Shown here: in pieces, positions 4,550 to 51,704 of the stretch
Layout: each line of letters opens with the position of its first letter
Numbering within the stretch: the stretch's first letter is position 1
From: Chrysophaeum taylorii
Taxonomy: Eukaryota > Sar > Pelagophyceae > Pelagomonadales > Pelagomonadaceae
Assembly: GCA_029834535.1 (NCBI GenBank)
Contig: JAQMWT010000165.1
Coordinates: 21,798 to 85,797 of the forward strand
Direction: 5' to 3'
DNA length: 64,000 nucleotides
Position numbers and translations under genes: made by a program
Notes under the pieces: model-generated
The model's database searches: none
The model's input: the letters and a program-made list of their open reading frames with translations, nothing else
Told to the model about the DNA's origin: nothing

Positions 4550-6110
4550 ATGTCTTCCTTCCCCTCTGTCTCGCCCAGCCCATCCAAATCCTGCACGTCG
4601 GTTACAAGCCCTTGCCAAAGAATATCATATGTTGTTCGCGTTCCTTCTCCTTTTTCTGGCACCATCTGCCCTTTGAAGTGGGTCCATCGCACAAAGTATG
4701 AATCTGGCCGCTTCAAATCGCACACTGCTCATCTAGTTGTCCGCGGTTACACCCAGGTTCACGGCATTGCTTACCACGACACGTACCGTCCTGTAGATGT
4801 CATCTCTGCTTTCATACAAGCCCCTGTCTGGCGTTGCTGTTCACGACTGGGATTTGCAGAAGTTGGATGTAAGCTCCGCTTTTATCCAAGCTCCCATTGA
4901 CGAAGACATCTATGTCTGGCCACCCGAAGGTTATGCTCCTCGCCAACCCACCGATGGTTTCAAAATCATTTACACGCACCGTCGCTCTTGGTATGGTTGC
5001 AAACAAGCTTGTCGTAATTGGTGGCTTTATTTGGCAGGCTTTCTCGTCAATGACTGTGGCTTCGTCCGCGGATCTGGTGGCACTTGCCGTTACAAGCTCG
5101 TGCTTAATTCTACCGTTGTCCTGCGTCTCGTTCTTGTCGTTGATGATCTTCTTGTGGCGCACTCTCGTTCTTGCCTTGGTCATTACCAAGCCTTCTTCCT
5201 CCGTTTCCGAACCTTCACTGATGTCAACGAGCTTGATCTGACCACTTACGTTGGTCTCCGCATTACGCGTGCTCGCGCACAACCAGACTTGACTCCCGCT
5301 CCCAAAGTTCTTCCTCTTTCTGCGGCTGCTTCTCCTGCACCTGACTCCCCTGCTCACGTCTTCATGGCACGCATCCCTTTTCGTCGTATTGTTGGCTGTG
5401 TTTTATTTATCTCCATCATGACTCGCCCTGATATCACTTGGTCCGTCAATCAGTGTGCGCGTTTTTCACACAATCCTGGTAAACCCCACTGGCACGCTTT
5501 ATCCCACACTCTGCGTTATCTCAACGGTTCTCAGGCTCTTGCCCTTGTTCTTGGTCGCGATTCTACCCTTCGTCTCTGTGGTTATTCCGACTCCAGCTGG
5601 ACCGACGACCCTGATGACCGCCACTCCACTACTGACTTTTGTTTTCTCCTTGCTGGCTCTATGATATCCTACTGCTCACGCTCGCAGTACCTCCTCGCCC
5701 GCTCCTCTTTTGAAGCTCAATTGCTCGCTCTTTACGCCGCTACTGCTGAGCTCTCTTGGCTTCTCAAACTTTTTGATGACTTTGCTCTCCCTCGTCACAC
5801 GGTACCAATGTATGTCGATAACAGAACCACCGTCACCCAAGTCCGTCTCCAATGTCTCTCGCGGCGCACCAGCCATATTGATATTCGTTTTACAGCACCG
5901 CCGAATATCATCGCAACCACATCATTGATCTCCAACACATTCCCCACCTTGACAACCTTAGTAATATCTTCACCCGCAGTACGGAAGCTCCTTCCTTCCT
6001 CCGGCTTCGTGCTCGTTACCTCACCTCGTGACTTCGCCCGATATCTCTTGTCTCTTTCTGCCACAATGCCTCTCCTGACGTCTGCCTTCACGCTTCTCCT
6101 CTGTAAGCGT
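4550..6110 (+). pseudogene. Copia-A reverse transcriptase-RNase H remnant
   Basis: Copia RT signatures are readable: KLDVSSAFIQAPIDEDIYV (palm), then VLVVDDLL at the catalytic box, where most Copia elements have YVDD. RNase H follows with CGYSDSSWTDDPDD, SSFEAQLLALYAA, MYVDNRTTV and RTSHIDIRF. The longest frame runs 4797-6164. Frame changes before 4,800 and after 5,890 separate it from the rest, and part of the RT between the fingers and the palm is rearranged compared with the 33-35 kb copy. Confidence 0.85.
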
Positions 6111-6211
6111 CTCACTTACCCCTTTTTCCTTCTTCCTTTTCTTTCTTTTCCAGCACCTGTGTGAGAACCTCACTTACCCCTTTTTTCCCTCTCTTTCTTT
6201 TCCAGCACCTG

Positions 6212-12200: not shown

Positions 12201-12238
12201 CAATTAATTATTGTGGATTTTAGTCAGGGCGCGACGAG

Positions 12239-16650
<4,412 letters not shown>

Positions 16651-16763: not shown

Positions 16764-17779
16764 ATGGTGGTCGAGGGCGAGTCCGAGGTGAGGAGGTTAA
16801 CATGGTCTTTGTTAGGAGTGTCCCAGGCGAGCGCGTGGGTCGCCGCCAAGACAGGCATCGCGCAGCGCGGATCGCTGTTCGAATGGTGGGGTCTCGAGAT
16901 GAATGAATCGGGTGAATCATTTTTTTTTTTCTCTATAGGCTGGGCGACGGCGTCGTGCTGTGCGTCCTCGCGAACAAGCTCAAGGCGAATTCGGTGCCGA
17001 AGATCAATCGTTCGAAGCTCAAGTTCAACAACATGGAGAACATCTCGGCGTTTCTCCGCGCGTGTCGCTCGCTCGGCGTCCAGGAGCACGCGCTGTTCGA
17101 GACGATCGACCTCGCGGAGAACAAGGACCTGGCTATTGTTGTTCGGTGTGTTTTGGCGCTCAAGAGAATCACCGGACGGCGCCGCGCGAGCGTTCCAGCC
17201 ATTGCGCCGCCGCCAGACACCCCCCTGAAGCAGGAGCTGGACGCGGCGAACGCTCGGGCGGCGAAGCTCGGGCTCGAGCTCGATCGCGCCAAGGCCGAGA
17301 TCGAGCGGCTGACGGCGCGCGTGCGGGACCTCGAGTCGTCGTCGTCGTCGTCGAACGGGAAGAGCCCGTCCAAGGTCGAGGATCCCGCCAGAGTTGAGGG
17401 TACGAAGGGAAGCGGCGGATTCGGACTTTTCGGAAAAAAGAAAGTGGGAAAGTACGACATGGAAGCCGAACGGATGCTGAGCAAGTGGATCACGGCCGCG
17501 ACGGGGCTGAAGCAGAAGGGAAATTTCGGGGACTGGTTGCACGACGGCACCGTGCTCCTCGAGCTCGCGAATGCGCTGGAGGACGGCGCCAAGAAAATTA
17601 GCATAAATCGGTCGTCGATGCCGTTCAAACAGATGGAAAATGTGTCGAATTTCCTCAAGGCCGTGCGCGAAATGGGCGTCGCCGACCACACTCTATTCGA
17701 AACGGTCGACCTCTACGACCAGAAGGACATGGGGCTCGTGCTCCAGTGCCTCCTTTCCCTCCATAAACTAAAAGCTTAA
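16764..17779 (+). CDS. Double calponin-homology (CH) domain protein, transgelin/calponin-like
   Basis: Three exons: 16764-16787, 16827-16885 and 16939-17779 (introns of 39 and 53 bp), 307 residues. The first CH domain reads ASAWVAAKTG...SLFEW then LGDGVVLCVLANKL and ends near LALKRI. A helical, alanine-rich linker with a serine run follows. The second CH domain (DMEAERMLSKWI ... DGTVLLELANAL ... FKQMENVSNFLKAV ... ETVDLYDQKD) is of the single-CH calponin/transgelin type that binds actin or signalling partners. Exon 1 is chosen because the joined frame restores the CH start; the eight-codon first exon is my inference. It starts 113 bp after the kinase-TPR gene and ends overlapping PGGT1B. Confidence 0.85.
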
Positions 17780-20866: not shown

Positions 20867-23800
20867 CTAGGAAGTTGGCGCGTTCGGTACACTGTAGTGT
20901 TCTTGACGTGTCCGCACATATTCGTAGCTGACGTCGCTCGAGAATGCGAAGATTTTCATTCGGGCATCTCCCGGGTTGGCAATTTGTTTTTTTGCGCTCA
21001 TGCACGCATCTTCCGACAGCATAATCACGTAGCACCCACCTGCCTGGACTGCGATTGATGACGCAGCTCGCGTTCTAGCACCACCGCCAGCACCAGAGTA
21101 AAGATTGCACCTGAAGTCGTCGTGACGTTTACGGCAATTCCATGGCTGTTACCAACCTCACGAAGCACACAATCTTGAATAATGGACAAGCAAGCAGAGG
21201 CGCAAGCACACACCATGCAAGGACACACACAATAGAATATGTTTCATATGCGCGAACTCTGGCATCGACCCCACGAAAGTACGCGCCGCAGGCCACAAAA
21301 CCAGTGGCGCCGTCGATGACGACGGCACCGTCTTGCATGCACAGCGCGTTCGCTGCGCGTTTCGCGTCATCGTTGTCGGAATACTTTTCGATGTGCGGTT
21401 TGTGTGTTTTGCTGAAGTCATAGATGGTCGGAAAAACCCCATACTTCGTGTACGTCTGTGCCCGCGATTGTTCCGCGATTGTTCCTGCACCGCAGTGTCT
21501 TGGCTTTCTGCGAGAAGCTCGCCCGTGTCGCAAACGATGAAAGTAGCGCCATGTGCGGGCTCGCCTTCGCCGACACCATCTGTTGCAACTCGACGAGCGA
21601 CCTTTATGGTTGCTTTTATGATTCCTGCCCAGATATCACGACGATTCTCATCAACGCGAAGCTGAGGTGGAATCTCGGCCTGACGCATGAACTCGGACGC
21701 TTCTCGCGTATACTTGATGTCCAGCGACTCATAGTCCTCCCACACAACAGAGCCGCAGCCGTCGGGACCACATTTCAGCAGAATGGCCTGTCCGACCCTG
21801 TCGTTATGAATGTCCGTCATCATCGAACGCAAACCAGAAAAAAATGCTCCAACGAAGCGATCGTCTCGATATTTCTTATCGATGGTTTTGAACGCAGCAC
21901 CAATCTTGCGTGTTTGGAGGAGCTCATCGTTCGTTGGCGTATCTTGAGCGAACTTCATATAGAATCCATAATTGAAAGCCCACACCTGGACGTCGCGTAC
22001 GTTGTTACGCCAAGCGATTATCCATCGGTCTTCACACTCTGCAGACTTATCAAAAAGCTGCTCACAGGCATCGTACGATGAACAAGCGTTCAGAATCACA
22101 CAGTTTGGCCGAGCTGTGATTTTTCTTAGGGAGCTTGCCCGGACCCCCAATTCTCGGTCGAGAAGTCGACATTCGCAAGTATCGTGCGTGACAATGTGCA
22201 CAACTTCCACAGGGCCTGCTCGCTTCTGTCGTAACCGATCTTCCAACTTGGCTTCAAATTGATGGACATTTTGGCCTACGCAGAGATGTATTGACACAAA
22301 CGAAGCACTCTGAACGCCCCGCACGCAGGTGAGTCCCTCGAGGATCCCCTCGCGATCTCTTGTGAAAGAAAATCCTGGAGTTTGTACCAGTGTGAAAAGC
22401 GAAGACTGGCTCGCAATATTCGCGCACCGACCACTTATCGATAGCACGCTGTATTTTGAGCGCGTCATGTCGCTTGATACCGATTTCCGCCAAAAAGGTG
22501 CACCATTCCTTATCGTCGCAATAACACTGCCGGGACTCCCGCAGATCGTCGATCGAGCGAATGTTGTCTTCGTACAATTTTCCCGCAAACACTGGCGCGC
22601 TTTTCTCGGATATGTCAGCACCATCACAAGATGCTAGCCACGTTATCAATTCTAGTTGCATGATTTCATCTTTCAAGCTTGAAACATCGAGTCTTTCGGA
22701 AGAACCACGACCATCCCTAACACCCAAATGTTCAGACGGCTTTCGGTCGGCAACATGTCCGCAAAAATGGCACCAGGGCGAGTTTCAACTTTTTTCTTAA
22801 TCTTGTACTCAAGATCCCCGGCATAAAACTTGTCGACAACCTCGCGCAGCGCATCAAGGATCATATCGTGAGTTGTACTCACCATATCGTCGTCGAAGAC
22901 GACCTGGATCTCCGTGGTGCTTACCTCAGAGAGCGCGAGCGTCCCATCATCAAAACTGAGATACACTGCCTTTCGAAAGAGCTCATCACAATCTGGCATT
23001 TTGCTGCTGCATTTTGGAACGAGCGACGCGACGAGGCGACTGAAGAGGGCATTTGGAAGATAAGCGAAGTTTATGGCTTCTGCTGTACCCGAATTCTCAG
23101 AGAGTGGCAGCCCGTATTTAAAGATGCTCGGAACAAGGTACTTGCGTTTTTTTGGGGTTATTTCACTACGAGGCGCAGCGCCTCCATGCGACCTCCAGGA
23201 CCATCACCCGCACTTGCGCTGGAGTAATGTTGTCTCCCAGGATGTTGTCGTCGACATGGCATTCGCTGTCAGGCCAAAGATGGTCAAGGAGGCGCTGGTC
23301 TAGAATGCCCTTGCGAGTGAGATCGTACCACAAAACCTCCCCGACGCCAGCGTCGTACGTGTCAGGCCCACCAAGAGACGCCGCCATATCGCGCCTCATT
23401 TTGTGCCACTCGAAGTTGCGAATCACGGCAGTGAACATGTCAATAATCCACTGTGGTTCCAAGATGACAATGTTCTCGGCCAAAGCACCGTGCGTCGAGC
23501 CAAAGTGGGTGATAACACCGAGTTCGTCGAAAAGCTTGAGCATAGCATAGACTTCGTCATTGCCGAGTGGCTCTTGACCCTTCTTAGCGTAGCACTTTCG
23601 AAGAAGGTCGCGAACGGCATTAATTCCAGCGAAGAATAGATCTTCGTCAGCACAGGCCCTCTGGAGCTCGTCGCACGTCTCGAGCCAAATAAGTGGCACG
23701 GGCTCGTGAATATAGCGGTCAGTATCCTGACAGATCGCATCTTCGATCGCTGTTCGAAGCTCTCCAAAAACTGGATTACCACTTTCCATGACTTTGTTGT

Positions 23801-26800
23801 CGACAGCATAGAACGCGAGGCCTTTCTCACTAGGGCGCACAATCGTGCTATTCAAGCTTGAAATTCCGGCAATGACGCTGTCTACTTCGTGCGAAATTTT
23901 TGTTCGCGCATCGTCGGAGATGGCGTCACAGTGCGTACCAACCAAAAACACTGGTGCGCCGCGTGCGTGAATCGCAATCGAATTGAGCCAAAACGCGAGC
24001 TGTTCGCGCGCAATCTTCCCAACCTCATCATTTGGTGACGACCCGTCGACCCAGTCAACCATGTTAAAGACTGCAAGAAACACACCCTTTCGAGATAGAA
24101 ACTTGTTGTGCACGACGTGAAAGGCTTCTTGCCTGAGATAGCAGTGTCATTCATTCATTCATTCATTCATTCATTCATTCGGGGTGAGTCAGACAAGCTT
24201 ACACAATATTGCTAGATGGACGACACAATGGGAAACAATGCTATGTGAGGACACGATAAATTCGCTGGCGCTTACCCGCCGTAATCCCACACGCTAATAC
24301 GAAGCTCGCGCTCATTCTTGGACTTGTCCAAAATCTCACTCTCATCATAGCGGTCACCCTTCAACTTAGCAGTCCAAGACCCACGAAATGTGAGACGGGC
24401 TGTGGTTTCTGTGCTTAGTTCTTCTTCTGAACTGCCATCACCGCGGGGCTCAAAGTTTAAAGAGACCACGTCTTCGTCCTTAAGGGAAATCTCTTGTTTC
24501 TTGGTTTCGGTGGACTCTATTTGACTTTCTTGCTTTGTTGTCAGATCACGCCTTTCAGCAACAACCGAGGTTGAGCTCCGCCCTGTGGTCCCTTGAATTT
24601 TCACGCCCGAGGCTCCCGGAGCTTCATCCGAACTTGGCCGTCCAGCGTGCGAGTCGTAACTCAAGTGGCCCGCGGCAAGAGCCGAAACCCCTTCCGTTCC
24701 CACCTCACTGAGAGTTCGCCAAACCGTACGTGTTATCGCAACATCACTTTTTTCGATTCCTTGGTCGCGCAGCGCCGAAACATCCGACCTCTCGGCCCCG
24801 CGGGTGCTACGTTCGTGCTCATCGAACTTCTCACCTTTGAGTCGTTTAAATAGGGACGTCTTCCCCACACGCCCCTGTCCAACAACCATAAGGCGTGCGC
24901 GCCGCCACGGCACGCTGGCTCGATCAAGGGCTTGACAAAGAAATTTCCGATGAAACTCGCGTCTTGCCTTTTCGCAGAGCTGATCGAAGTTCTCGCCCGG
25001 CTCCCAGACACGTATCGTCTGGTCAGAGGACGAGCTCACCAACAAAGGCGTGCCACCGCTCATCTTACAAGTCACCAAACCCAAGACTGGAGCATTGTGG
25101 GCAGAAAGTACGCAAAGTAGCAGGGCATCACTAGCAGTCCAAACGCGCACTGTTCCGTCTCCAGAACCGCTTGCCAGCAGCATGAGCCCGTTGCCTGTCG
25201 AGAAAGCAGCTATGCAAAACACGCTGGCCGTATGCCCCTCGAGTTTGTGTATTTGGTGGGGGGCTTTGGTGGGGTTCCAGATACGAACCGTGCTGTCGTC
25301 TGAACAACTCGCCAGCCGCGGGCCATCACTCGCAACGAATGCCACCACGCTCCACACCTTACCCTCGTGACCCTCGAGCACGCGGATTTGGCGGGCTTCG
25401 GTAGTCGCGTCCCGCACGCGCACAGTCCCGTCGGAGGAGCAACTCGCGAGGCAAATGTTTTCGTCGCTCAACTTCAACGCCACCACACTCAACACCGAAC
25501 CTTCTTGGTCCTCGAGTTTGCGGATTTGCTGGCCCGCAACTGGGTCCCACACGTTGATTGTCCCGTCGGAAGAGCAACTCGCAAGGCACGTGGCATCCTT
25601 CATCTCGAAAGCCGTCACACAGTTCACCTCGTCCTCGTGGCCGTCCAGTATGCGGAGTTGCCGACATTCGACCGGGTCCCACACGTGCACTGTGCAGTCG
25701 TTAGAGCAGCTTGCCAGCAGCAGCCGCGTGCCGTCGCTCGTTTTGAACACCACCACGCCGCGCACCGAACTCTGGTGCCCCTCGAGCTTGAGTATTTCGC
25801 GGCCCACTTTCGGATCCCATACGCGCACCGTTCCGTCAAGAGAGCAGCTCGCGAGCCGTGGCTCGCTTTCGCGCGTCTCAAACCCAGCGACACCACACAC
25901 ACCCCCGCCGTGGCCCTCGAGCACGCATGTGAGCTTGAAAGGTGGTGTCGCCCGAGCCGTCTGTTCCGCGTCGCGTGCCAATCGCGAAAGGGCCATCATC
26001 GTGGCCCCGTGCCCAGCAGCTTCCAGCGTACGCTGCCAGAGCTCTTCGGCGAGCACGGCGCACCCAAAAACTCGCACGCGGTTTTGCGAGAGGAACAAAG
26101 CCTGGTGCAAAAGTGAAGCCTCCCCCCCTGGAACCTTGGTCGAGTCGACGACGAGGTCGGCCATCTGGCCCGCCTCGACTCGCAACGTCACGAAACGCAG
26201 CGAGCACAACAGCGCCAATGCGACATGTTGGAGTTTCGCCGCGACAAGATGTGTGACAGCCCATCGCAAAGCATAATCAACCGGAGCCAAGAGCTCGTGA
26301 TCATCGTCACCAATACCCGTCAAACTTGCACGAATAACCGCCGCTGCGTGCGCGTCGCTCTCGTTGTTTAGGTTCCTCGGTCCATCGAGTTCACGAACGA
26401 GCGTGGCCAAGCACGCAGCCGCGGCACGGCGGTGAGAAGTCACATAGTCGATGAAGTACGGATCCACGTCACTGCGGTTTTCGAACGGAAACTCACCCAT
26501 TAACCAGCCAGCGAGGGACTCGTTTAAGACGCGGATGCACGCGTCGTTGCGCGCTGGAAAGAGCTGCGACAGCATCCAAACGATGTCCTCGCACCTGGAG
26601 ACGCCACTCAAACCCGGGATGTCTTTTATGCGCAGTGGTTCAGAAGCGGCGAGGATGGCTCCGAGGACTTTTCGGCAGTCGATGGAAAACCCACCGGGGA
26701 AGACGCGAGTGAATTCGGCGAGGTACGTGCCGGCGAGACCATCGGGGATTTCCTCGATATCAGCGTGTGGCTCGTCTTCGAGCCGTTTTCGGAGCCAGTA

Positions 26801-28141
26801 GAGATACAAGAAGAGACCCTCCGCCTTGGCGGCAGCAGTGGTGATGGTGGCTTCGAGGCGTTCGGGATCGACAACCGGAGCGAGGATAGCTCGGAGAAAC
26901 CGGCGGACGTCGACGTCGCATTCCTTGGCGTTCTCCTCGGAGTCAAGGAATTTAGGTCGAAGCGTGGCCAATTTGGTTTGCACGGTGAGCTCTGGCCGAG
27001 ACGTGACGAGCACCGCGACCCAGGGCGGGAGCTTGGGGAATTCACGCGCGATGAGATCGAGGAGGTGGTTCTTGGTCGCGTGCTCGGCCTCGTCGAGCGC
27101 GTCAATCACGATGAGCAGGCGACCGCCCGCGGGACGTTCGATGCTGGCGAGCGGCTCGAGGGTCAGGCAGTCGACCAGCTGCACGATATCGTTCAGGTCG
27201 CAACTTCCGGCCCGGAGCACCTCCTCCACGTTTTTGCGGTACTCTGGAAGCACTTGTGCGATTTGGTACGCGAGCGACTTGATCATGCGGCACGGGTCTC
27301 GCTTGCCGGCATTGTTGTATCGGATCAGGTGCACAGCGATAAGAACGTCTTCTCCAAGCAGCGAATACAGTTGGGCGACGATGGCCGTCTTGCCGAAGCC
27401 CGGTCCGGCGAGCAACACGCAGCATCGAGGGCCGTTGGGGTTTCGAACCCAGGAAATGAGGAAATCGAGAATCCAGTCGCGCGTACCAGGGACGAATTGC
27501 TTGATGTGCCACTCGAGTTCGCCTTTGAACGAGAGTGGGCGCAGCTGCGACTCGAGCGACGGAGGTTCGTTCTCCTTCACCACTGGGACTCTCTCGGGGT
27601 AATAGTCGCCTCGGAACACTTCGAAGTGCGCGTCCGGCGGTACCGGGTTCGCGCGCGTGCCGCAGATGTCTTCCGATGCTTTGATAGTGACGCAATTCGC
27701 CCTGACAGCGATCGAGGAGGCCGCTCGGGTGCGCGATCCTGTGCCGTAGGGTGTCATGCTATCGCGGTTCGCAAAACCCCCGCAGCAGACCTGGCCCGAT
27801 TTTCCGTCGATGACGATCGCGTTGTGGCAGGCGCAGAGGGTTTGCAACACCCGCTTTTCAACGTCGCTGTTGGTGCAGTTCTGGATGAGAATCCAGCCAT
27901 CGCGGCGGTCGAGGTCCTTGGGGAAGAATCCATACTTGGAGTGAACGCTCGACTCGGTTTCGGCAAACGAGAGGTCCGGATCAGGAGCGAGGAGTTCGGT
28001 CGAGTTGCCGACGATGAACAAAAAGCCGTGCGCGGGCTGGTTCTCGCCGAGGCCCTCGGTCGCGATCATGCGCGCGGCATCGAGGGTCGCCGCGACGACC
28101 TTGTGTTCGAGCCTGACACGATATTCTTTGTTATCCTCCAA
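20867..28141 (-). CDS. Giant NLR/ROCO-like receptor: DAC-like, NACHT, WD40, Roc-COR, SAM, CHAT protease, DAC-like
   Basis: Exons that join cleanly: 28141-24276, 24132-23193, 23140-22722 and 22677 onward; the last exon ends at 20867 (TAG). About 2,300 residues. Residues 1-165 form a DisA_N (diadenylate cyclase)-like domain with GTGSRTRAASSIAV. A NACHT-type NTPase follows (P-loop AGPGFGKT 245-252, Walker B LLIVIDALDEAE). Seven WD40 repeats (~735-1045, SxDGTVRVWDP type) make one propeller. Next come a Roc GTPase (GQGRVGKTSL near 1085; WDYGGQEAF across the first intron; GTHCD) and COR. Exon 4 opens with a SAM-like domain (22677-22428), then a CHAT caspase-like protease: His in VHIVTHD (about 22185) and Cys in LNACSSY (about 22083). 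It ends with a second DAC-like domain with an intact DGA (21330) and ARTRAASSIAV. The frame changes between SAM and CHAT (intron or error) and at the 11-bp duplication 21464-21485. The domain set suggests a STAND-type signalling or cell-death receptor; this role is inferred. Confidence 0.8.
21464..21485 (-). repeat. 11-bp tandem duplication that shifts the frame
   Basis: Two exact copies of gcgattgttcc back to back. Upstream the CHAT frame reads through to this point; downstream the DAC-like domain is in another frame. The duplication length (11) exactly accounts for the shift. Confidence 0.75.
24133..24275 (-). other. Intron with ATTC microsatellite
   Basis: GTAAGC...CTCAG, 143 bp, phase 2, splitting the Roc G3 motif between GG and the following Q. 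It is the longest intron in the window because of an (attc)n run at about 24147-24180. Confidence 0.8.
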
Positions 28142-29409: not shown

Positions 29410-30531
29410 TCAGCACACCACTTGAGAGACGAGGGGCTTGTCTTCGGCGGAAGTGGAGACCGGAGGCGTCGGGATCCGCCGGCCCGAAGAAGAAGAATTG
29501 AAATGGCGCAGGACGAGAATAAATGTGAAGGAAACGACGGCGGCGAAAATTGCGACGTTAATGAGCGGGGAGGGTAGCCCCCGCGCTGGTTCGTCGTCGT
29601 CGTCGTCGTCGTCCAAGGCCCAAACCCTCACGCTCTTCACCCGCATCGCCGCTCTTCCGTCGTCCCACGACGGGTACCATTCGTCTCTCGCGCGGTAAAA
29701 AGACGTTTGTGGGAACGGATCGCTCGTTCGCCACGGTTTGTCGGGCGCGTCGGGCCAGTATCCCGTCTCCTGGACCGAGCCCACGGGTCCGAGCGAGGTA
29801 CCACCCACGGCAACGTTCATTATCAAATAAAACGGCTTGTCGAATGGCTGAATATAATCGTCCGAGGTCAAATCGGCGAGATTCGCGCGCAAAATTACGT
29901 TCGACGTCGAATCTAGATACGTAAAAATTTCGGAAGGGGTCCAGTGGAGCCCAAAGATGTGATAGCCGTTGGTACTAAGTTTTGATGAATTCGTAGTTTT
30001 GGCATAACCGTTCCGTTCGACGTCGGGACCCCAGTGCAACGTCGAAGAAAAAACGTCGTTTCCGAGGTCCACGCCGTCTACCGTGTAATTGACGTTGCCG
30101 CGGGCTTCCATGACGTCGATCTCGCCGCCGGCGGGCCAAGGTTTTGAGGAATCGACAGGCATCAACCAAAGCGCCGGCCATTCCCATTTTCCCGACGGAA
30201 TTCTCGCTTCAAATTCGACGCGACCATACAAAAACGAAAACGTATCTTTCGTCGTCAGCTTGGCAGAAAACACCGGCGGCAAGACGTTGTCTTCGGTTGC
30301 CTGCCGAAATTCACCGAATTCCATCGTGCCGCTCGTCATCTCCGACGCCCATGGTTCGGGGGTCAGAGTCGGCGTGATGACGAGCCCCGACCCATCATCA
30401 TCGATGTACGCGTTTTCGGGCCGGTCCACGTACGCCTGGAACTCGCGGTTCCCGTCGCCGCTCGACGATACCTCGGCCCGCCACACTGCTGCGGAAAGAT
30501 GATCAAAGGTGTCTTCGAATATCAGACGCAT
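29410..30531 (-). CDS. GH16 beta-glucanase (laminarinase-like), membrane-anchored
   Basis: 373 residues, single exon as read. The catalytic signature EIDVME (137-142) carries the nucleophile and acid/base glutamates of glycoside hydrolase family 16, preceded by WPALWLMP and followed by STLHWGP and FGLHWTPSEIFTYLD. The enzyme class cleaves beta-1,3 or mixed-linked glucans such as laminarin/chrysolaminarin or wall glucans. A run of aspartates (DDDDDDD) and a C-terminal membrane helix near 325-345 (INVAIFAAVVSFTFILVL) precede a short tail. The frame begins right at the catalytic domain (MRLIFEDTFD), so a signal peptide is missing; it may lie on an upstream exon, or the start may be wrong. Substrate is not determinable from motifs. 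Confidence 0.85.
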   Translation of the reverse strand: MRLIFEDTFDHLSAAVWRAEVSSSGDGNREFQAYVDRPENAYIDDDGSGLVITPTLTPEPWASEMTSGTMEFGEFRQATEDNVLPPVFSAKLTTKDTFSFLYGRVEFEARIPSGKWEWPALWLMPVDSSKPWPAGGEIDVMEARGNVNYTVDGVDLGNDVFSSTLHWGPDVERNGYAKTTNSSKLSTNGYHIFGLHWTPSEIFTYLDSTSNVILRANLADLTSDDYIQPFDKPFYLIMNVAVGGTSLGPVGSVQETGYWPDAPDKPWRTSDPFPQTSFYRARDEWYPSWDDGRAAMRVKSVRVWALDDDDDDDEPARGLPSPLINVAIFAAVVSFTFILVLRHFNSSSSGRRIPTPPVSTSAEDKPLVSQVVC

Positions 30532-30639
30532 CGTGGTCTGCCAGCAAACGGATCAAGAACATATCCAGCACATTCGAAGACTTTAACCGTCCGTAAGGCT
30601 TTTTTCTCATCTATTAGGGTTTGGGTTTGGGAATACTGC

Positions 30640-38150: not shown

Positions 38151-38377
38151 CTATATACGACGTTAAAAAAAAAAAAGAATTGATTTTGTTCCCAAATAAA
38201 TACATAAATAATTCTTGGAAAAGTGCAATGTATCCGAAAATTTGGAAATGTGAAAAGAATTCGGGGTTGAATACACAATTCTTGGAAAAAAGCGAATCCG
38301 TCGCTCGCTAGGGACCGTTGGGAGGTTTCGCGCTTGTCCCACCTGCTGCTGGGTGCTCGCGAAAAAAAAAGTACAAG

Positions 38378-39904
38378 ATGCTCAAGGGGTCGCTGTTGCT
38401 GTTGAGCTTGGCGGCGGTGGTGACGATAGGGAAGGCCGAGGAAGACCTCCAGAGCCAGATTGACGCCCTCGCCGAGCGGCTCGCGTACGTCGAAGACAAC
38501 AAATTGGATGTCGTCGACGCGGATGCGTTTTGGCTGCTTTTCGGGACGTGCCTGGTGTTTTTCATGCAGGCGGGGTTCGCGATGCTCGAGGTCGGGAGCG
38601 TGCAGGTCAAGAACACGAAGAACATCCTGATCAAGAACATCTTCGACGCCACGATTGCGGCGCTGTTCTGGTGGTGGACCGGGTACGCGCTCGCGTTTGG
38701 CGCCGACACTTTCAAGGATACGGGGGGGAACGGTTTGTACGGTGGGTCGGGGTTCTTTTACGAGGGGAAGGGGTCGGGCGACGACGCGTCGCCGCTCGTG
38801 AATACGCCCGACGCCAAAACGTACGGCAAAGCGTTCTTCATGTTCCAGTGGGCGTTCGCCGGCGCGGCCGCCACGATCGTCTCCGGAGCGGTTGCCGAAC
38901 GCGCCACCTTCACCGCGTACCTCACGTACTCGTGCTGCTTGGTCGGGTACATTTATCCGGCGGTGGTTCATATGGGCTGGTCGGGGGACGGCCGTTTCTC
39001 TCCGTGGCGAGAAAATCGCCTCTTCGGCGGCTGCGGGATGATCGACTTCGCCGGGTCCGGGGTCGTGCACATGACGGGCGGCATCGCGGCGATCGTGTCA
39101 TGTTGCTTCGTTGGCCCGCGCCAGGGCCGTTTCGGTCCGAATTCCCGCCACATCGAACAACAATCGGTCATTTTCCAATCTCTGGGAACTCTGATTTTGT
39201 GGGTTGGATGGTACGGGTTTAACGGCGCTTCCACCCTCGCCATCCAGGGCTACGGCGGCGTCGCGTCCCACGTCTTCATGACCACAACAATCTCCGCGGC
39301 GACGGCGTGTCTGACGACCGTTTTTATCGGATACGGCCTGACGCACGTCATCGATCCCGGCTACGCGAACAACGGCATCCTCGGGGGCCTCGTCGCCATC
39401 ACCGCCGGCTGTGCGACCTCTAACAACTGGGGGGCCTTCTTCACGGGCCTCGTCGCCGGCCCCGTCTACGTCGTCGCCTCGATGACCCTCAAAAAGTTGG
39501 AAATAGACGACGTCGTCGACGCGTTCCCCGTGCACGGCGCGTGCGGTATCTGGGGCGTCCTCGCCGCCGGCCTCTTCGCGTCGGAATTCTATTACGCAAA
39601 CGCCTACTATTCGGATCGCAAGGACGACTGCGCCGGCGTGTTTTACGGCGGCGACGGCGGCTCTTTGGGCTCGGCGATTTGCTTCGTGCTCACGAACATC
39701 GCCTGGACGGGCGCGAACATGACCATCCTGATGACCATCCTCTCCAAGACCGTCGGCGTCCGCGTCACCGAGCACGTCGAGACGATCGGAATGGACGACT
39801 CCAAGCACGGCGGTCACGTGGACGTTCCGCTCCCTAAGGGTGCCAAGTTTGAGGACGGCTCCCAGACCACGGTCCCCGACAAGCAGGTCGAGGAGATGGC
39901 TTAA
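38378..39904 (+). CDS. AMT: Ammonium transporter (AMT/Mep/Rh family)
   Basis: 508 residues from the ATG at 38378; an upstream in-frame ATG at 38318 would add 20 residues before what looks like a signal sequence (MLKGSLLLLSLAAVVTIGKA), so the later start is preferred. Eleven or so membrane helices. Family signature DFAGSGVVHMTGGIAAIV includes the first pore histidine; the second is in FPVHGACGIWGVL. Other AMT marks: FFMQAGFAMLEVGSV, NTKNILIKNI, WAFAGAAATIVSGAVAER and GWYGFNGAS. It carries ammonium across the plasma membrane. The C-terminal tail (GVRVTEHVETIGMDDSKHGG) includes the conserved region through which AMT trimers are gated. Single exon, intact, strongly GC-rich codon use. A Copia LTR lies just upstream. 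Confidence 0.95.
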   Translation: MLKGSLLLLSLAAVVTIGKAEEDLQSQIDALAERLAYVEDNKLDVVDADAFWLLFGTCLVFFMQAGFAMLEVGSVQVKNTKNILIKNIFDATIAALFWWWTGYALAFGADTFKDTGGNGLYGGSGFFYEGKGSGDDASPLVNTPDAKTYGKAFFMFQWAFAGAAATIVSGAVAERATFTAYLTYSCCLVGYIYPAVVHMGWSGDGRFSPWRENRLFGGCGMIDFAGSGVVHMTGGIAAIVSCCFVGPRQGRFGPNSRHIEQQSVIFQSLGTLILWVGWYGFNGASTLAIQGYGGVASHVFMTTTISAATACLTTVFIGYGLTHVIDPGYANNGILGGLVAITAGCATSNNWGAFFTGLVAGPVYVVASMTLKKLEIDDVVDAFPVHGACGIWGVLAAGLFASEFYYANAYYSDRKDDCAGVFYGGDGGSLGSAICFVLTNIAWTGANMTILMTILSKTVGVRVTEHVETIGMDDSKHGGHVDVPLPKGAKFEDGSQTTVPDKQVEEMA

Positions 39905-43780: not shown

Positions 43781-45740
43781 AATGGACTCGGCTCAAGACA
43801 CACCCCAAATGCTCTCGTTTCGCCTGATGCAGTTGTTCGTCGAACATCTGATGCCTGAAACAGGCATAACTCAGTGTTTCCTACAGCAAGGCTTCTACAC
43901 GTGGGAAGAATCCTTGTCTTGCGCGGATCTAATGATCTCGCTGACGCTCTCCTAAGCCCCCCCGTATCGACGAATACGACAAGGATCCCGACCACCACTC
44001 AACCGCCGGGAACACACAAGATTTCCAAGGCCGTTACGTCTACCACGAGGGTGTCTACCGCAAATTCGGCAAGCACTTCCTGCTGGAGAACGTCTACGAG
44101 CCAAAGCTGCTCCAGGAACTTAGAGATAAAGGCAAGGACCCGACACCGATATCACAAAAGGCAAGTTGGATCACCGATCACCCAACCTCACCTCCAAGGA
44201 AAAGACGCCGACTTCATCGTATATCTCCGCGAGACCGCACACCCCCTCTTTCGCCGTTTCCTACATGCCGGTAGCGACTCCGTCAAGCACCCAGCATACG
44301 ACGAAATCGATGCACTCGGATCTTCCTATCCGATAGGACTCGAATTTGTGCTTCAAGTTCGCCTCGCACTCGATAAGCACGCGGGCCAGAACCACGTCCA
44401 CCATGCGCACTACGTATATAATGCCTTTCTGGACACGCCGTTCAACCCTGAAATACACGAGCCTGCTCACTAGGTTGACTACATGCGCCACGTCCAGCAG
44501 CAACTGCGCCAGATAACAACCGATGCTTCTCTCCAACTTTCCGAATATAAGATTCTCGAGGAAATCCACCAAATGCTTCGTTTTAAGTACCCTCCAAGTT
44601 TGCTTGACTCCCGCGCCCCAACACACATCAAGGGCTTCGCACGTCTTGCTAACTGCCTGCGGAGTGTCCCAACGACTCGCTGTTACTCGACGAATACAAG
44701 GAAGCCATCAACCACCACCTTCCCAAGCTCATCGCTCGCATCACCGTCATCTCCACGTTTGAGCGCAACTTTTGGGCTCACCTCAAGCCTCACCCAACTC
44801 TCAACTTCAAGCCTTTGCGCTTCGTCACTGACTTTGGTCGTCTGCCAACAAAGGACACAAAGACAACCCCCGTTTTCGCTGACGCCGTCATGGTCTCCAC
44901 CGAAAACGATGATGACACCTCTCCCTCCGAAGATGACACCCCACAGGATCCCGACGAAGACACCGACCCCGTCGCTGTTTTTCTCACGGAGGCCAACCTT
45001 GACCACGACGAAGACAATGACCTCATTCACCAACTCCACGCCTACCGCAAAAAGCAAAAATTTCGCGGCACCCCAAGAAGCCCCCTCCTAACAAAAAGCC
45101 TCCAAATCCTCGCGCCCCGTCTTACTACGACATCAGTGACAGTCCTAAGCCCAAGGCCACCCCTGTCACCCAACCGAAGAACACGCAACGTCCCCGTGCT
45201 ACTCCTGTCACCCCTGACAAACGCGAGCACAAGCATCTTCGCAAGATCACCTTCCCCACACAACCTCATCCACCCAAACCATCTACTCCTAACCAACGCT
45301 TCAAGGTCCCCCTTCGTGAAGTCCCTCGCAAGCTCCAAACCACGCGGAATCTTAGCCAAGCCGGTCGCCAACATACGTCCAGCTCCGAGCGCATGAGCAA
45401 GCTAATCAACCTCATCACCACCATCTCCGACGAGATACTTCTCTCCGAAGCCGAAACCGATGCCGCAGAATATATTTCTCCAGATGTTGACATCCGATCC
45501 CCAAGACGATCCACCTGATGAGATCGAAGCCGAAACCGATAAACAAGACGAAAAAAGACACCTCGGTTTCTATGACGACAACGGTCAGCTCGACCTCTAC
45601 GACGACACCATTCCCGAAATCAATGATGAAGATGACTCCGCCGAAGACTACGCACAACGTCACAGTGTGACTGACTATATGCGTGCTCTCCACACCAGAG
45701 TCGCCTTTTTCGCGAATGGTTGCCGACGACGACGCATGTG
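43781..45740 (+). pseudogene. Copia-B gag-like region
   Basis: Starts MDSAQDTPQMLSFRLMQLF (43781) and continues, with frame changes near 43,950, 44,200, 44,680, 45,060 and 45,500, through helical sequence (KFGKHFLLENVYEPKLLQEL; SYPIGLEFVLQVRLALDKH) into long acidic and proline/lysine-rich stretches. Position, helical N-terminal half and basic/acidic C-terminal half are those of a gag capsid-nucleocapsid, but no zinc knuckle is seen. Confidence 0.5.
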
Positions 45741-46047
45741 ACGCCAACCACATCTTACTCAATCAGGCACCAAACCTCAAGATGACGAGTTTTCCGACAT
45801 CATCAACCATCTCACCCAGAGTCGCAGATTTTCTTTGTGCAACTTACACTCCAGGCAAGACCTCAAAGAAGACTAACTCGCTGCAAGGATGCAATAGACC
45901 CGGCACCGAAACTTCATTGATTGACGGTGGCGCATTATTTTTTGCTTTACGCGCACAATCGACAACTTTGTTCCTGAGTCCATACGCCGGATTCCCGAAC
46001 ACACCATTCACATATGGGACGCGGCACCCTTACCAGCCACTTCATCG

Positions 46048-47556
46048 GTGTTAAAACCGTTGTATTTGCAGGCTGCAGGTCTCTCCTCAAAGGATACAAA
46101 AGACATAACCGGCTACGCTTTATATCTCGTATTTATGGTCGTCCCGCAATTCAGGCAAGGTCTCCAAGTTATCGCAACATCTCAGCTCAAAGCTCTGCAT
46201 GTACAAGCCACCGATCCGCCACTGCCCCACGAGCCATATCTGTACGAACTTCTAAAGTCCTCAACCTTCGATCCGCACGATTATAAGACTCTTCTAGGAA
46301 AAACCGCCGTCGTACTCGCCACTCGCAAACCTAACGGCCTGTTCTCCCTGCCGTCCCATCATCCAAAGCAAACATTCTCAACTGTGATCAGTTTCCACAC
46401 AAGAAAACGAATGTCACTCAAGGATGAGATTGCACTCATCACACAGCATGTCGCAAAGACACGCTCTAAATCGCACGCGCTTGATTTCGCCAAGCTACAG
46501 AATCATTCCCTGTATTTAAACGAACTGCTCAACCTCCAACATACTGTCGTCCACTACGCCTTCAATGGCTCCCCAGACCTCCCTGTGCAAACACAACCCC
46601 CTCCGCTCAAAACAGCCATTCTTGCAGGTGGACTTCACCAGGAAGGTTTCGACACTTCTCGCAAACGATTCGACAAACGCCTTACTGTCGTGGTCACCTG
46701 CGAAATAAACGATATAATGCGCACCCGTGCGCAACAACTCTTTCCGCACGCTCAGCACTATGCGGACCTACGGAAACTCAATGCCGCACTCCAAACCGGC
46801 AAAATACCACTACCTCCATTCGGCTTGGCAGTTTTTACATTGCCCTGTCAACATCTGAGTGTAATGCAAGAATACGACGACGGCTATGCCACTCCGGTCA
46901 CCGCCGACCTTTTCGTCCAAGAACAAATCCGCTTCGTTCGGTGCACGCTCCCGACCTACGCCATTGTCGAGAACGTACCTCCCAACCCCCGAACTCATCA
47001 CGAGTATACTCTACTCGCAAAAGGCTATCAGCGCTTAGGCTACTTCCGCCACTCCGGTGTCTACAATGCCTCTGCTTTTGGTGACGTCATCAGCAACAAG
47101 ACACGCTATCTCGCTGTGTATGCCCGACACCCGCTCACCGGCTACAACCTCGAGAAAACCGCTTCTACTGGGTTAACCTCGCCTCCGAGCATGGTTCATC
47201 TCTTGGACCCCAGTCACACCATCCCTGACGATCTCTGGATCGCCAAACCCGCCCTTCGTGGTACAGTGCCCCGCTCCACCTTGGACTACTACCAGCACAA
47301 TGCCACCTACCCCTACAAGCCCGATAACGCCTCGAAACTCTCGATCTCCGATAATGCCCGCATCTGCCAAATGCTCGCACGTCTCACCAAGCCCTTCACG
47401 GATCTCGGTTTAGATGCCGACGGCACCTCCCACGCCACAATGGCGTCCATTTCCCACCTTCTGGTTTTCACATTCTTGCACAACCATTTGTCGCAACACC
47501 CAACTCTCGCCGCTTTGAACACCCTCCGCTGTTTTCGAGCCTCAGAGTCTCAATGA
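46048..47556 (+). CDS. C5 cytosine DNA methyltransferase within the Copia-B polyprotein
   Basis: 502 residues as read; the frame is open upstream, so this is an internal polyprotein segment rather than a free-standing gene. Residues ~188-360 carry the ordered C5-MTase motifs: I (AILAGGLHQEGF, SAM binding), II (VVTCEIN, Glu219), III (ADLRKL), IV with the catalytic cysteine (FTLPCQHLS, Cys267), VI (YAIVENV, Glu-Asn-Val 308-310) and VIII (FGDVISNKTRYLAVYAR). The region after 360 would hold the target recognition part and motifs IX-X, which I can only match loosely. The first ~185 residues are unrelated and unidentified. All core catalytic residues are present and this segment has no internal stop, in contrast to the flanking gag. 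Expected reaction: methyl transfer from SAM to cytosine C5, perhaps on the element's own cDNA. Confidence 0.85.
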   Translation: MLKPLYLQAAGLSSKDTKDITGYALYLVFMVVPQFRQGLQVIATSQLKALHVQATDPPLPHEPYLYELLKSSTFDPHDYKTLLGKTAVVLATRKPNGLFSLPSHHPKQTFSTVISFHTRKRMSLKDEIALITQHVAKTRSKSHALDFAKLQNHSLYLNELLNLQHTVVHYAFNGSPDLPVQTQPPPLKTAILAGGLHQEGFDTSRKRFDKRLTVVVTCEINDIMRTRAQQLFPHAQHYADLRKLNAALQTGKIPLPPFGLAVFTLPCQHLSVMQEYDDGYATPVTADLFVQEQIRFVRCTLPTYAIVENVPPNPRTHHEYTLLAKGYQRLGYFRHSGVYNASAFGDVISNKTRYLAVYARHPLTGYNLEKTASTGLTSPPSMVHLLDPSHTIPDDLWIAKPALRGTVPRSTLDYYQHNATYPYKPDNASKLSISDNARICQMLARLTKPFTDLGLDADGTSHATMASISHLLVFTFLHNHLSQHPTLAALNTLRCFRASESQ

Positions 47557-48171
47557 GCTTACCATTTGGATGGAGCCATCACCGGCACCGCCGCTACTGC
47601 CGTCGCATGTGGCTACTTCCCGCGCGCCTCCCTCACACTACATTCCAGGCACCCTCAGATATTGGACTGTTCCCATCAACCCGCAGTCTTCTCCCCAACG
47701 CACCCCTTTTCCCTGGATGTTCCCAAGGGCACCGCCTTTCTGGTCGTCGCCTACACCACCTCCTTGGCCGCCGCCCACAGCTGCTCGCGCCCGTCCACTT
47801 GGGTCCACTACATGAATCGTTCGCATCCTGGCTTTGCCGCGATCGACTCACGAGGGCGAATTACTCTCGCTGACCCCAAGGGACTCATTATGTTTTTAAG
47901 CACGTCCCACTTACGCGGACTATGTCGGCCAGACATCGGAGACACGCTTCAGAAAAGCACCAAGTGTTACTCGGTCACTGGCTCGTACCCAACCAACACG
48001 AGCTACTCCAACGCCTTGCTGCTGATCTCTCCAGACCACATCCGCTATGCGACCCTCAACGAAATCACAAAGTTTTGACACCACTCGGTAAACCCGGAAC
48101 TACTCCGTCTGTTCCAACAGCACCCGCCGTACTTCGCGTTTAAGGCACTGGCCAACGCCGTCCCGCACAAT
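47557..48171 (+). pseudogene. Copia-B linker, possible protease region
   Basis: Frames change here. 47,566-48,078 is open but includes frameshift-like transitions. A Copia protease (D[S/T]GA) would be expected just before integrase; I see only weak candidates (AIDSRGRITLA near 47,845; SLIDGGA near 45,915, before the methyltransferase). Confidence 0.35.
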
Positions 48172-49251
48172 ATGCTGCAGGCAAAGTACAGCGCTGTTCT
48201 CGCACTCCACGAATCGCACCACCACGTGAACTTTCACATCGAATGGGGAACAATACGCATTGGCATCCCCAGCCCAGGAGACATCACCCAGGTTGCAGAC
48301 TTCTTCATGAGCATCTCCAGCCGTCTCTTAGCAGAGGAGGACCTCAACCTCATCTCCCTCTTTAATGCTATAGCAGATGCTCACCATGATGCGATCCGCA
48401 AACCAAGCAAATCGAACAACCTCGAGACGCTTCTTGCCGAGGCAACCGTCGCTAAAATCCGAGTCGACAAGCTACCCAGCCCCCCCCCAGCGCTTCGACT
48501 GCTGCTCTGCCTCCCTTGCACAAGCCCGGCACCATTTCAGCACGCCGAGAGAGTGCTTTCGGTCACTCGCTGGCACCGCATACACCACCAGCAACCAGAG
48601 ATTCTTCGCCGCACGATTGCCGCTAATTTGACGAATCTTGGCCCAGGTGATGATCGGTATCTGCAAGACTGCAGCGAATGCAAGCGCTGTCAATCGCATG
48701 TCAGCTTCCGTCACAAGAACACTTCCTGGTCACAGGACGAACTGGCCTATGCTCCTGGCCAACGCCTCCACATGGATGTATCATACCCGAGCTTCAGCAA
48801 GTGTTACGGTGGATTTCGTTACATCATGCACTTCGTGTGTATTATTATCTCAGCACACATGTGGGTCTATTTCCTGCGGAAACTAGACGCACAGGATGTT
48901 CTAGCCGGCATCCTCTATGTGGTCAACGTGATTAAGGTCGAATTCGATGTCAATGTGAAAATTATCTCGTCTAATGCATTCTCAACTTTCAGCTCTAAAG
49001 CTTTCCACCCGCTCAAGGTGCAACTTGGCATCCAGTTTCAAATCCTTGGTCGCCACCTCCACCAGCGGAATTTTGCGGAAAACATCATCAAGGAAAACAC
49101 CCGAGGCACCGTAGTTTGCCTCCTCAACCTCCGCAGTATACGCATCGAAGGAAAGTCTACTGCCGCCGAGTATTATCACCCATTCGCTCTCCTGCATAAG
49201 ATCCAAGCCGACAACCAGCGCTCTCATGGACTGCTTCGCGCACAAACATGA
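48172..49251 (+). CDS. Copia-B integrase
   Basis: 359-residue frame. The zinc-binding head reads WHRIHHQQPEILRRTI ... DCSECKRC (HHCC). The catalytic core begins with LHMDVSYPSFSKCYGGFRYI (first Asp), has a degenerate second position (SSNAFSTFSSKAF where Asp is expected), and ends NFAENIIKENTRG (Glu). It catalyses insertion of the cDNA in the family; the missing middle Asp suggests this copy is inactive. The upstream 150 residues are unidentified. Confidence 0.7.
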   Translation: MLQAKYSAVLALHESHHHVNFHIEWGTIRIGIPSPGDITQVADFFMSISSRLLAEEDLNLISLFNAIADAHHDAIRKPSKSNNLETLLAEATVAKIRVDKLPSPPPALRLLLCLPCTSPAPFQHAERVLSVTRWHRIHHQQPEILRRTIAANLTNLGPGDDRYLQDCSECKRCQSHVSFRHKNTSWSQDELAYAPGQRLHMDVSYPSFSKCYGGFRYIMHFVCIIISAHMWVYFLRKLDAQDVLAGILYVVNVIKVEFDVNVKIISSNAFSTFSSKAFHPLKVQLGIQFQILGRHLHQRNFAENIIKENTRGTVVCLLNLRSIRIEGKSTAAEYYHPFALLHKIQADNQRSHGLLRAQT

Positions 49252-51290
49252 CATGCACCGTCCCCCGGCGCATCATGTCACCCATGGCACCGCGCTTGAA
49301 GCTCCTTCCCTTTGGCGAACCCGTCACTTTTGTCTACCCTCAAAGTCACAAGCTGGAACCCTCCAGCGTCTCCGCCTCTTACTTTCATAGTAACAACTAT
49401 CTCCCGAACCTCCCAGGCACGGACCGATTTATCCGTGATGTTCACAGCTCCATCTTGCTTGTACCTCAGGGGCGATATGGAAAAATCGTCACCTCTAACG
49501 ACTTTCATGTTGACACAGACATGCCAGTCAACCGTAACAAGGAGATCGAACGGATCAAAGCACTCGCACAGATCCCAACAGAGGCACGGCAAGAGGACCC
49601 GCTACCAGCTATCTACGAACATCAAATGCCGGAAATTAGACAGGAATCGCAAAATGAGGGCGAGACTCACGATGACGAGCAGGATGATAAACCTAGCGAT
49701 GACGACGAACACAAAGAACCGGATCCAACTCCCGCTGCTGATTCAAGTCCCGTCAGCGACGCGACACCTGAACAGGATTTTTCGTTCCTCAACCGGCCAC
49801 CTCCGCCGGATGGTAGCATTCCGATGCCCAAACGAAAAGATCGCCTAGAGGTTGTTCTCGACGATTCAGGTTTTACACCAGTTCTCGTGCATCGCAACCA
49901 GAGCGATAAGCTCAAAGCAGATCTCAATGACGAACGTGGATTTCGCATCCCCAAGGACCAACTCTATATCGTGAAGCGTGTCGATGATGGAAAACTCTTC
50001 ACCAGACGGATTGTCGCCTCAGAGTATGGTCGCAACTGGGAATACCAGCAGGAGCAATCCACGGCTCACGCCACAGCCAACATGTCCAGCACATTGATGT
50101 TCCTCATCAGTGTCAGCGCTCTGCACCAGGGCCGCGCCGCCAGCATCGCGTCTGATCTCAATATTCGAAGAGATGCTAAGCCGCCAAATGATATTCCGAA
50201 AGGATGTCTACTAGCAAGTACCACACAAGACTATGGTATCATGGGCGGCACAAAACTGGATTTGCAGAGAGAAACCGACGCAGAACTCTTGTGCGTCGAT
50301 TTCCCCCCAAGGAAGGCGTACCACTCATCTGTACTGGTCGACCACCTGGACAACGACAGTTCTGTTCTCGAGAACTATGTGTGCCACAACGAACTGTCAC
50401 CGGCAGAGTACTATGCGCGTCAATGGAACCAAGAATTCTGTTGTATGGGTTCCTCTCTTTTGTGGGACATCTCCGCGCATCAGCACTACCACCTAGCCTC
50501 TCGTCACAGGCATGCCTTCATGCATGATTCTGGCGAACTCGGACATCTCTTCCTAAGTCAAAGTGATCCGAATCAAGATATTCTCCAAGAAGTCATGGAC
50601 TATGATTTGCAGCACTTCGATCATGTCGTGTTACAACTTGTGACCGCTGAAGATATTGTCTATGAGCCTGAAAAGATTGTCGAACTCAAAGGACTCAGCG
50701 AAGAAGATAAGTTAAAGCATATCGCTTCGATTCGCAAAGAAATTGAAGGATTGTGCTCCAATGGTGTCTTCAAGCTGGAACCTTTACTACCATACCGTTC
50801 GTCTATCTCGACGAAGCTCGTGCTGAAGATCAAGTATTTCGCTGACGGCACTCCAGACCGCTATAAAGCTCGTCTAGTCGCCCGAGGTTTCTTGGCATGT
50901 GTAGGCATTGACTTTTATGCCACATCCTCCCCAACCGCAATGCTCGCTACAAACCGGCTACTGCTCGCCATCGCTGTGAAGCACAAGCTCCCGGTAGCGC
51001 ACGCGGACATTCCTCAGGCATTCATCCAATCGGCACTCGATCGCCCCGTATGGATCGACTTTCCTCGTGGAATACGTGTCTCGCCAAATCTTATCCAGCA
51101 GTTACAGATTGCTTATCCAGCAGATACAGAAGAACCATCCAGAGTCGAAGCTCGCTCTCCGACTCGTATAGGCTCTATATGGCCTCAAACAGTCAGCTTT
51201 ATTGTGGAACATCAAACTCGACTCGTTTCTTCGACAACAGAGTTCGAACGCTCACAAGTCGACACTTGCCTCTATATCTCCAGAGCGCTA
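49248..51290 (+). CDS. Copia-B reverse transcriptase, N-terminal part
   Basis: Begins 4 bases before the integrase frame ends. The first ~430 residues are a variable linker with a strongly acidic patch (DDEQDDKPSDDDEHKEPDP) and a proline-rich stretch. RT starts with LKHIASIRKEIEGLCSNGVF, then YKARLVARGFLACVGIDF and HADIPQAFIQSALDRPVWI, which are Copia RT signatures. It stops being homologous after QVDTCLYIS, where an insertion separates it from the catalytic VDD part. Confidence 0.8.
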
Positions 51291-51704
51291 CACTATAATG
51301 TGTACGACACTGGAACTCCTTACTCCTCTCACCCCTTTTTCTACTTCAGGGTTTTCTCTCCGTAATACGGCTCTCCCTCTTTCCTTCCTTACCCTTCCGC
51401 AATTATGATTTCCAGATTATGAAGTATTAGATCTGCAGTTCACTTCCGACAAGGAGTAGGCCTCCAGGTGCGTACCGTCAGGTATGGGGTTTTCTGTTTA
51501 ATTAATGGAGGCTTCATTCCTCATTGTCAGTGTAAACGCTTCTATGGGACCTAATGTCTTTAAGGAGTTAGGGCCTAAATCCCTACCTTGTGTAGTAGCA
51601 TGTGGCAAGCGGAATGGTCTGTACACGCCTAAGACTGCACGCAGTCTCTACCATGTACCCGGAGAGGGTCAAATCTCTCCAATATCAATTGGGATCGATT
51701 TATC
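51291..51704. mobile_element. ~410-bp insertion inside Copia-B RT
   Basis: Separates DTCLYIS (ending about 51,285) from NKWVLLSVSVDDLLITG (from about 51,705), which should be adjacent in Copia RT. The inserted DNA is more AT-rich, has no coding sequence, and could be a solo LTR or MITE. I could not find a convincing target duplication or terminal repeats. Confidence 0.5.

Follow-up and report, generated by a model that had tools for sequence, protein, structure and literature searches.

A probably decayed NLR-like locus and its family of diadenylate cyclase-like modules in the alga Chrysophaeum taylorii

Described systems and the algal locus

The closest described counterparts of the system reported here are fungal NLRs, which combine a NACHT domain with WD40, ANK or TPR repeats and with swappable N-terminal effectors like CHAT, PNP_UDP_1 or HeLo (PMC9815663, PMC12881547). 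The locus described here lies in a 64,000-nucleotide stretch of contig C165 of Chrysophaeum taylorii (JAQMWT010000165.1, positions 21,798 to 85,797), hereafter the window. The other contig numbers used below, such as C418 or C324, belong to the same algal assembly, whose 84 light-harvesting matches are those of a photosynthetic eukaryote. The minus strand of the window carries the whole chain from 28168 down to about 20933, in agreement with a sequence-only reading that had recognized one locus on one strand, and the parts follow each other in the order diadenylate cyclase (DAC)-like, NACHT, WD40, Roc, COR, linker, CHAT and DAC-like. We lean towards the view that this locus has decayed and that it belongs to a lineage-expanded NLR-like (STAND) family in which the DAC-like domain is a swappable module, mostly N-terminal and here also C-terminal, and that its ancestor had the composition DAC-NACHT-WD40-Roc-COR-linker-CHAT-DAC.

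Like fungal NLRs, the algal proteins join an NTPase switch and repeats to interchangeable enzymatic or membrane modules, and CHAT, phosphorylase and MLKL/HeLo-type parts recur in the alga; unlike them, the algal chain adds ROCO and DAC-like ends. The 19 effector profiles listed by PMC9815663 do not include the DAC family PF02457, and the words 'diadenylate' and 'DisA' occur 0 times in the main text of that paper. With ROCO proteins the locus shares the G1 and G3 motifs of Roc, together with COR-A/COR-B-like parts that line up in order with a relative on C324, but its Roc-COR is joined to NACHT, WD40, CHAT and DAC-like parts and all its ROCO profile matches lie below cut-off. In bacteria, according to a 2026 report, a DAC is necessary for phage defence by DS-2 (PMC13092281). 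The likeness to DS-2 is that of a DAC in defence, a role that is predicted from sequence for the alga. By the same report, DS-2 is encoded by separate bacterial genes beside CBASS, with no NACHT fusion, and requires its catalytic residues, whereas the RHR motif is altered in the algal fused copies (PMC13092281). Bacterial NTP-dependent conflict systems likewise have alternative effectors of caspase-like, phosphorylase and nucleotide-generating type; unlike the algal fusions they are prokaryotic and multi-gene, and in the paper that describes them 'diadenylate' occurs 0 times and 'DisA' only in the reference list (PMC7159879). No earlier report of a eukaryotic DAC-NLR fusion was recognized in the open-access literature, which was represented mainly by listings and the starts of abstracts and leaves most subscription papers outside.

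Frame breaks and the state of the locus

Exon 1 is an uninterrupted frame of 1298 codons (28168-24275) that has the NLR/STAND composition, namely a NACHT-type NTPase with Walker A and B motifs (AGPGFGKT and LLIVIDALDE, assigned by eye) and C-terminal sensor repeats of WD40 type, among which no near-identical tandem units are seen. The order further downstream was established by tblastn with the C324 protein, from Roc-COR-A to CHAT, and then with DAC queries for the terminal DAC pieces (Table 1). The ROCO profile matches (Roc E 0.011, COR-A 7e-6, COR-B 0.048) stand in the right order and are collinear with C324, whose sequence is interrupted at the same Roc motif as the locus. The DAC-like, NACHT, WD40, ROCO and CHAT parts of the sequence-only reading are found collinear in this way; its SAM domain is not, the locus piece and two relatives having no SAM profile match. 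PADLOC gave at best E 0.017 and 0.025, and an NCBIfam scan yielded no match above cut-off.

Past the Roc intron there are four changes of frame within some 2 kb (23190/23143, 22817/22754, 22392/22354 and 21506/21443), while C324 runs from the second Roc exon through the phosphorylase as a single open frame of 1277 codons with no intron at those breaks. We read the four breaks as real disruptions because no splice candidate there is convincing by eye and C324 is open at these places; assembly error or odd splicing are live alternatives. Of the splice junctions that had been described as joining in phase through exon 4, that of the Roc intron is good; joining in phase through all of them was not confirmed. 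The locus has no in-frame ATG before exon 1 residue 34; in 11/11 other copies of the DAC alignment (A1, see below) an in-frame ATG is found ahead of the first conserved helix.

C275 carries the segment a second time, with 71-87% identity in five blastn pieces and many gaps and stops. A weak DAC remnant lies there close to Roc, NACHT-WD40 being missing (blastn E 5e-6, tblastn E 0.007), which makes the CHAT-DAC ending older than the duplication. Counted by codon position, the differences between the two copies are 6/142, 5/144 and 17/141 in Roc-COR-A (449 of 945 bases aligned), 7/42, 7/41 and 11/44 in the linker, and 14/127, 13/127 and 11/129 for the three pieces of the C-terminal DAC taken together, which have no third-position bias. 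These counts, which are blunt since C275 is itself decayed, indicate clear constraint in Roc-COR-A and none in the C-terminal DAC.

Several observations weigh against decay. Exon 1 is still open over its full length, the DAC domain has a ratio of non-synonymous to synonymous divergence (dN/dS) of 0.23-0.55 when the locus is compared with 11 copies, and the His and Cys of CHAT are retained. The comparison with C275 gives 9/92, 4/94 and 11/93 by codon position in COR-B and 25/198, 22/199 and 36/201 in CHAT, both with a mild third-position excess; constraint appears mild in both parts and some of it may have lasted there. In-frame GT/GC-AG candidates of 20-101 bases are available at every one of the four breaks (16, 6, 7 and 9, respectively) when sought within at most 24 bases of the conserved ends and judged in quality by eye, not statistically, and a fifth break, 21276/21100, is intron-like with a plausible acceptor CTTCAG. 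The open exon 1, the retained His and Cys, the splice candidates and the fifth break would suit an intact gene whose single receptor product has DAC-like domains at both ends and contains a CHAT protease, the gene being interrupted by short odd introns or assembly indels and receiving its start from an upstream exon. We regard such a gene as possible and rather unlikely: four breaks in about 2 kb face a single open frame in C324, the candidate sites are poor by eye, the C-terminal DAC pieces are free of codon-position bias and HNA replaces DGA in the N-terminal copy. In its present state the locus is probably no longer an intact gene.

It is very unlikely that the segment represents two adjacent genes, DAC-NACHT-WD40 and a separate Roc-COR-CHAT-DAC. 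Other DAC-NACHT-WD40 copies (C454:66222, C396) do end after WD40, but exon 1 is free of stops from DAC via WD40 into the Roc P-loop, the Roc intron joins exon 2 in frame, and the split would fall within this open frame and not near 22.4 kb. If the decayed locus is translated, its longest unbroken frame would span exons 1 and 2 and count 1619 codons (1586 from the first ATG), and the product would be DAC-NACHT-WD40-Roc-COR-A devoid of protease and of a second DAC.

The DAC-like and CHAT-like domains and their relatives

Sequence comparison leads us to conclude that the end domains are homologous to DAC, with the support carried by the C418 copy. The locus's own DAC copies have no Pfam DAC match, so that the DisA_N assignment of the sequence-only reading, like its CHAT, is not recovered from the locus alone and comes from the family. 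Among all 12 members of A1, 9/12 match PF02457 at E up to 10, DAC being the family that most copies match. Run singly on 10/12 of them, PF02457 gives 31.5 bits for C418 (cut-off 27), 13-17 bits for eight others and no match for one; the match fades or vanishes in longer frames (E 0.063 for C454:85913, none for C309). In NCBIfam, C418 also hits DisA at E 1.8e-5 and CdaA at E 0.0047, with scores far below the curated cut-offs. Profile-profile comparison used a bacterial DAC profile of eight sequences, 7 fetched records and C301, from 30 plasmid records with a match: as long as C418 is left out the family reaches E 0.0032 (probability 9.9%), its inclusion brings this to E 0.00049 (31.9%), and the CHAT profile run as negative control gives E 0.27. 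In the PDB, ribosomal protein S12 comes first (E 0.25), followed by diadenylate cyclase 7l8n (0.3) and DisA 3c1y (0.64); in the alignment to 7l8n the family motifs land on DGA and RHR. AlphaFold models computed without alignment are unusable (mean pLDDT 32 for the N-terminal DAC, 39 for the CHAT piece).

A chance resemblance of the N-terminal domain to DAC would agree with the missing Pfam match of the locus copy, the sub-threshold scores of the eight fused copies, the low profile-profile probabilities and the rank of S12, but it is the least credible of the explanations considered, given that C418 exceeds the Pfam cut-off and is 34% identical to the locus copy (Table 1), that it reaches DisA, if below cut-off, in NCBIfam, that PF02457 matches most of the family and that the 7l8n alignment pairs both motifs.

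The motifs of DAC are DGA and GxRHRxA, as given in PMC7288161, and the locus N-terminal copy carries neither. At the first position A1 has DGA in 3/12 members, DNA in 7, ENA in 1 and HNA in 1, the locus N-terminal copy; at the second, RHR is found in 1/12 (C418) and RT-x in 11/12. C418 keeps both DGA and RHR, and the C-terminal remnant of the locus has DGA with RTR. The histidine of RHR is gone from every aligned copy except C418 (11/11), so that cyclase activity is doubtful outside C418. Nucleotide signalling coupled to proteolysis, as proposed by the sequence-only reading, appears unlikely for the locus copy because the receptor-fused copies have altered catalytic motifs.

To see whether the algal DAC came from bacteria or viruses, GTDB and IMG/VR contigs were scanned with A1 or C418 queries, which reach close relatives only, and no relative was found. 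C301 has a strong PF02457 match, and the frames at 22000-25350 of this contig are arranged as in bacteria, a folP-like one preceding a cdaA-like one; the frame adjoining the DAC is the one that we take by eye to be folP-like. It is probably DNA of a co-cultured bacterium and served only as a yardstick.

Searching the alga's own genome with the DAC domain gave at least 21 matches, grouped by position into at least 17 units. Twelve of the 17 are full-length and open (A1) and 5 are partial or broken, including the C-terminal copy of the locus; the C275 remnant is one further. The domain is mostly the N-terminal module of NLR-like proteins. NACHT-WD40 follows it at the locus, at C454:66222, C454:60548 and C396, in open frames on C454 and C396, and NACHT follows on C599, where the frames are broken. 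A CHAT-like part follows at C454:85913, C454:89108, C575 and C309, and in a second frame on C600; C677 has a short tail after DAC, and no known domain is seen after DAC in C418. The C309 frame (613112-623000) has 3406 codons coding for DAC-like, CHAT-like, MLKL_N-like, ankyrin, kinase, TPR and NACHT parts and an ankyrin array with 22 copies of a 102-base unit (MLKL_N E 2.4e-5, 24.3 bits for a cut-off of 27; kinase E 8e-27; NACHT E 3e-4, below cut-off). From its domains, its product is a candidate all-in-one cell-death receptor. Sister proteins that join DAC-like to CHAT-like, MLKL_N-like (below cut-off), kinase, NACHT and ankyrin parts strengthen the NLR/cell-death interpretation first proposed for the locus.

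The full chain is seen at the locus and, as remnants lacking NACHT-WD40, on C275; both of its occurrences are broken, and no intact copy was found in the genome. Synonymous divergence (dS) between the locus and three paralogues (C454, C396) is 0.42-0.59 in DAC, 0.34-0.39 in NACHT and 0.92-0.96 in WD40; the higher WD40 value may reflect a sensor exchanged separately, or misaligned repeats. The assembly may hold haplotype duplicates, which could inflate gene counts, and the DAC copies on C396 and C599 are 94.5% identical. C25:69915 and C521:69905 have identical CHAT scores and near-identical coordinates, C521 looking like a copy of C25.

Pfam CHAT (PF12770) is the sole family found for the corresponding locus piece, at E 0.071, below cut-off; two C324 relatives have no Pfam CHAT match and the PDB gives no CHAT match. 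Relatives support the assignment. Seven places in the genome exceed the Pfam CHAT cut-off, and a same-genome profile was made from 4 of the 7 (5 were fetched, C480 was left out as no His/Cys motifs were seen, and C419 was not fetched). The locus/C324 CHAT profile matches it at E 3.6e-4 (probability 37%) over a region spanning VHIVTH and LNACSS. In the DAC sister proteins, the CHAT-like part matches the locus CHAT profile at E 3.9e-4 (35%); its name is provisional because Pfam has no match for it (5/5) and the same-genome CHAT profile does not match it either (E 0.13). In one low-identity MAFFT alignment, the His and Cys columns of this sister part seem swapped, with Cys in IFVGC and His in LLAHxS.

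With the C324 body as query, open Roc-COR-CHAT-phosphorylase frames were found twice, each time on C324, with 1277 and 1236 codons and 69% identity; further phosphorylase-type matches lie on C324, C398 and C28. PF01048 is above cut-off at C324:102780 and reaches 21.3 bits, below cut-off, in the other frame. As a nucleoside phosphorylase ends these frames, DAC and phosphorylase occupy the same position after CHAT in different copies. The cluster C324:53270-110759 holds several nucleoside-phosphorylase modules, two of them ending Roc-COR-CHAT frames, with TPR-like and weak HET/TIR-like frames upstream of one.

Table 1. Parts of the locus and neighbouring features in the window
Feature	Position	Strand	Evidence
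N-terminal DAC-like domain; motifs HNA (for DGA) and GSRTRAA (for GxRHRxA)	27569..28129	-	34% identity, E 6e-21, to C418
NACHT-type NTPase (NPHP3_N)	26996..27487	-	Pfam PF24883 E 7.5e-23, exon 1 residues 228-391, above cut-off
WD40 repeats, 7 stretches	24971..25936	-	Pfam PF00400 E 1.7e-52
Roc GTPase, first part, P-loop to WDYGG	24276..24898	-	small_GTP E 2.5e-4, below cut-off; C324 upstream exon homologous by eye
Roc intron, GTAAGC...TCTCAG, 143 bases	24133..24275	-	joins WDYGG to QEAFHVV, rebuilding WDYGGQ
Roc second part and COR-A; stop near 23166	23190..24132	-	59% identity to C324; COR-A E 7e-6, below cut-off
COR-B, past frame change	22817..23143	-	38% identity to C324; Pfam COR-B E 0.048, below cut-off
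Linker (SAM in the sequence-only reading), past frame change	22392..22754	-	33% identity to C324
CHAT caspase-like, past frame change	21734..22354	-	33% identity to C324; His 22186-22184 (VHIVTH), Cys 22084-22082 (LNACSS)
C-terminal DAC-like, three pieces: 21622-21506, 21443-21276 (DGA kept), 21100-20933 (GARTRAA)	20933..21622	-	tblastn with N-terminal DAC E 2e-11, 1e-8, 1e-7
Long frames	4797-6161 and ~44653-52886	+	by eye resemble copia-type retrotransposon polyprotein
Protein kinase	12224-13744	+	
Calponin-homology protein	16916-17776	+	
Glycosyl hydrolase 16	29413-30552	-	
Ammonium transporter	38312-39901	+	

A possible mechanism and its meaning

For intact relatives of the locus we infer the following steps. 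The repeats would sense a ligand, and NTP-driven oligomerization of NACHT would bring DAC-like domains face to face. DAC catalysis requires two domains facing each other, as stated in PMC7288161, and an NLR oligomer could supply this pairing. The paired DAC-like domains would form a nucleotide-binding assembly or signal module, or else an altered nucleotide cyclase, the former being more likely because RHR is altered. CHAT, MLKL-like or kinase parts would carry out the response.

The family is of more interest than the locus itself, and it raises the question whether cyclic di-AMP (c-di-AMP) is made or bound by C418 or by a fused copy. A bolder proposal, drawn from domain composition and in our estimate decidedly improbable, is that the alga has a nucleotide-signalled innate immunity built on DAC-headed NLRs, in which oligomerized DAC-like domains would make or bind a cyclic dinucleotide, the RHR-bearing C418 would serve either as the synthase or as a partner, and cell death would be brought about by CHAT, phosphorylase, kinase or MLKL-like parts. 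The 2026 finding of a DAC in phage defence (PMC13092281) adds to the interest of the algal DAC-headed NLR-like family: if the proposal is true, eukaryotes would have in this family their counterpart of the bacterial defence that uses DAC.

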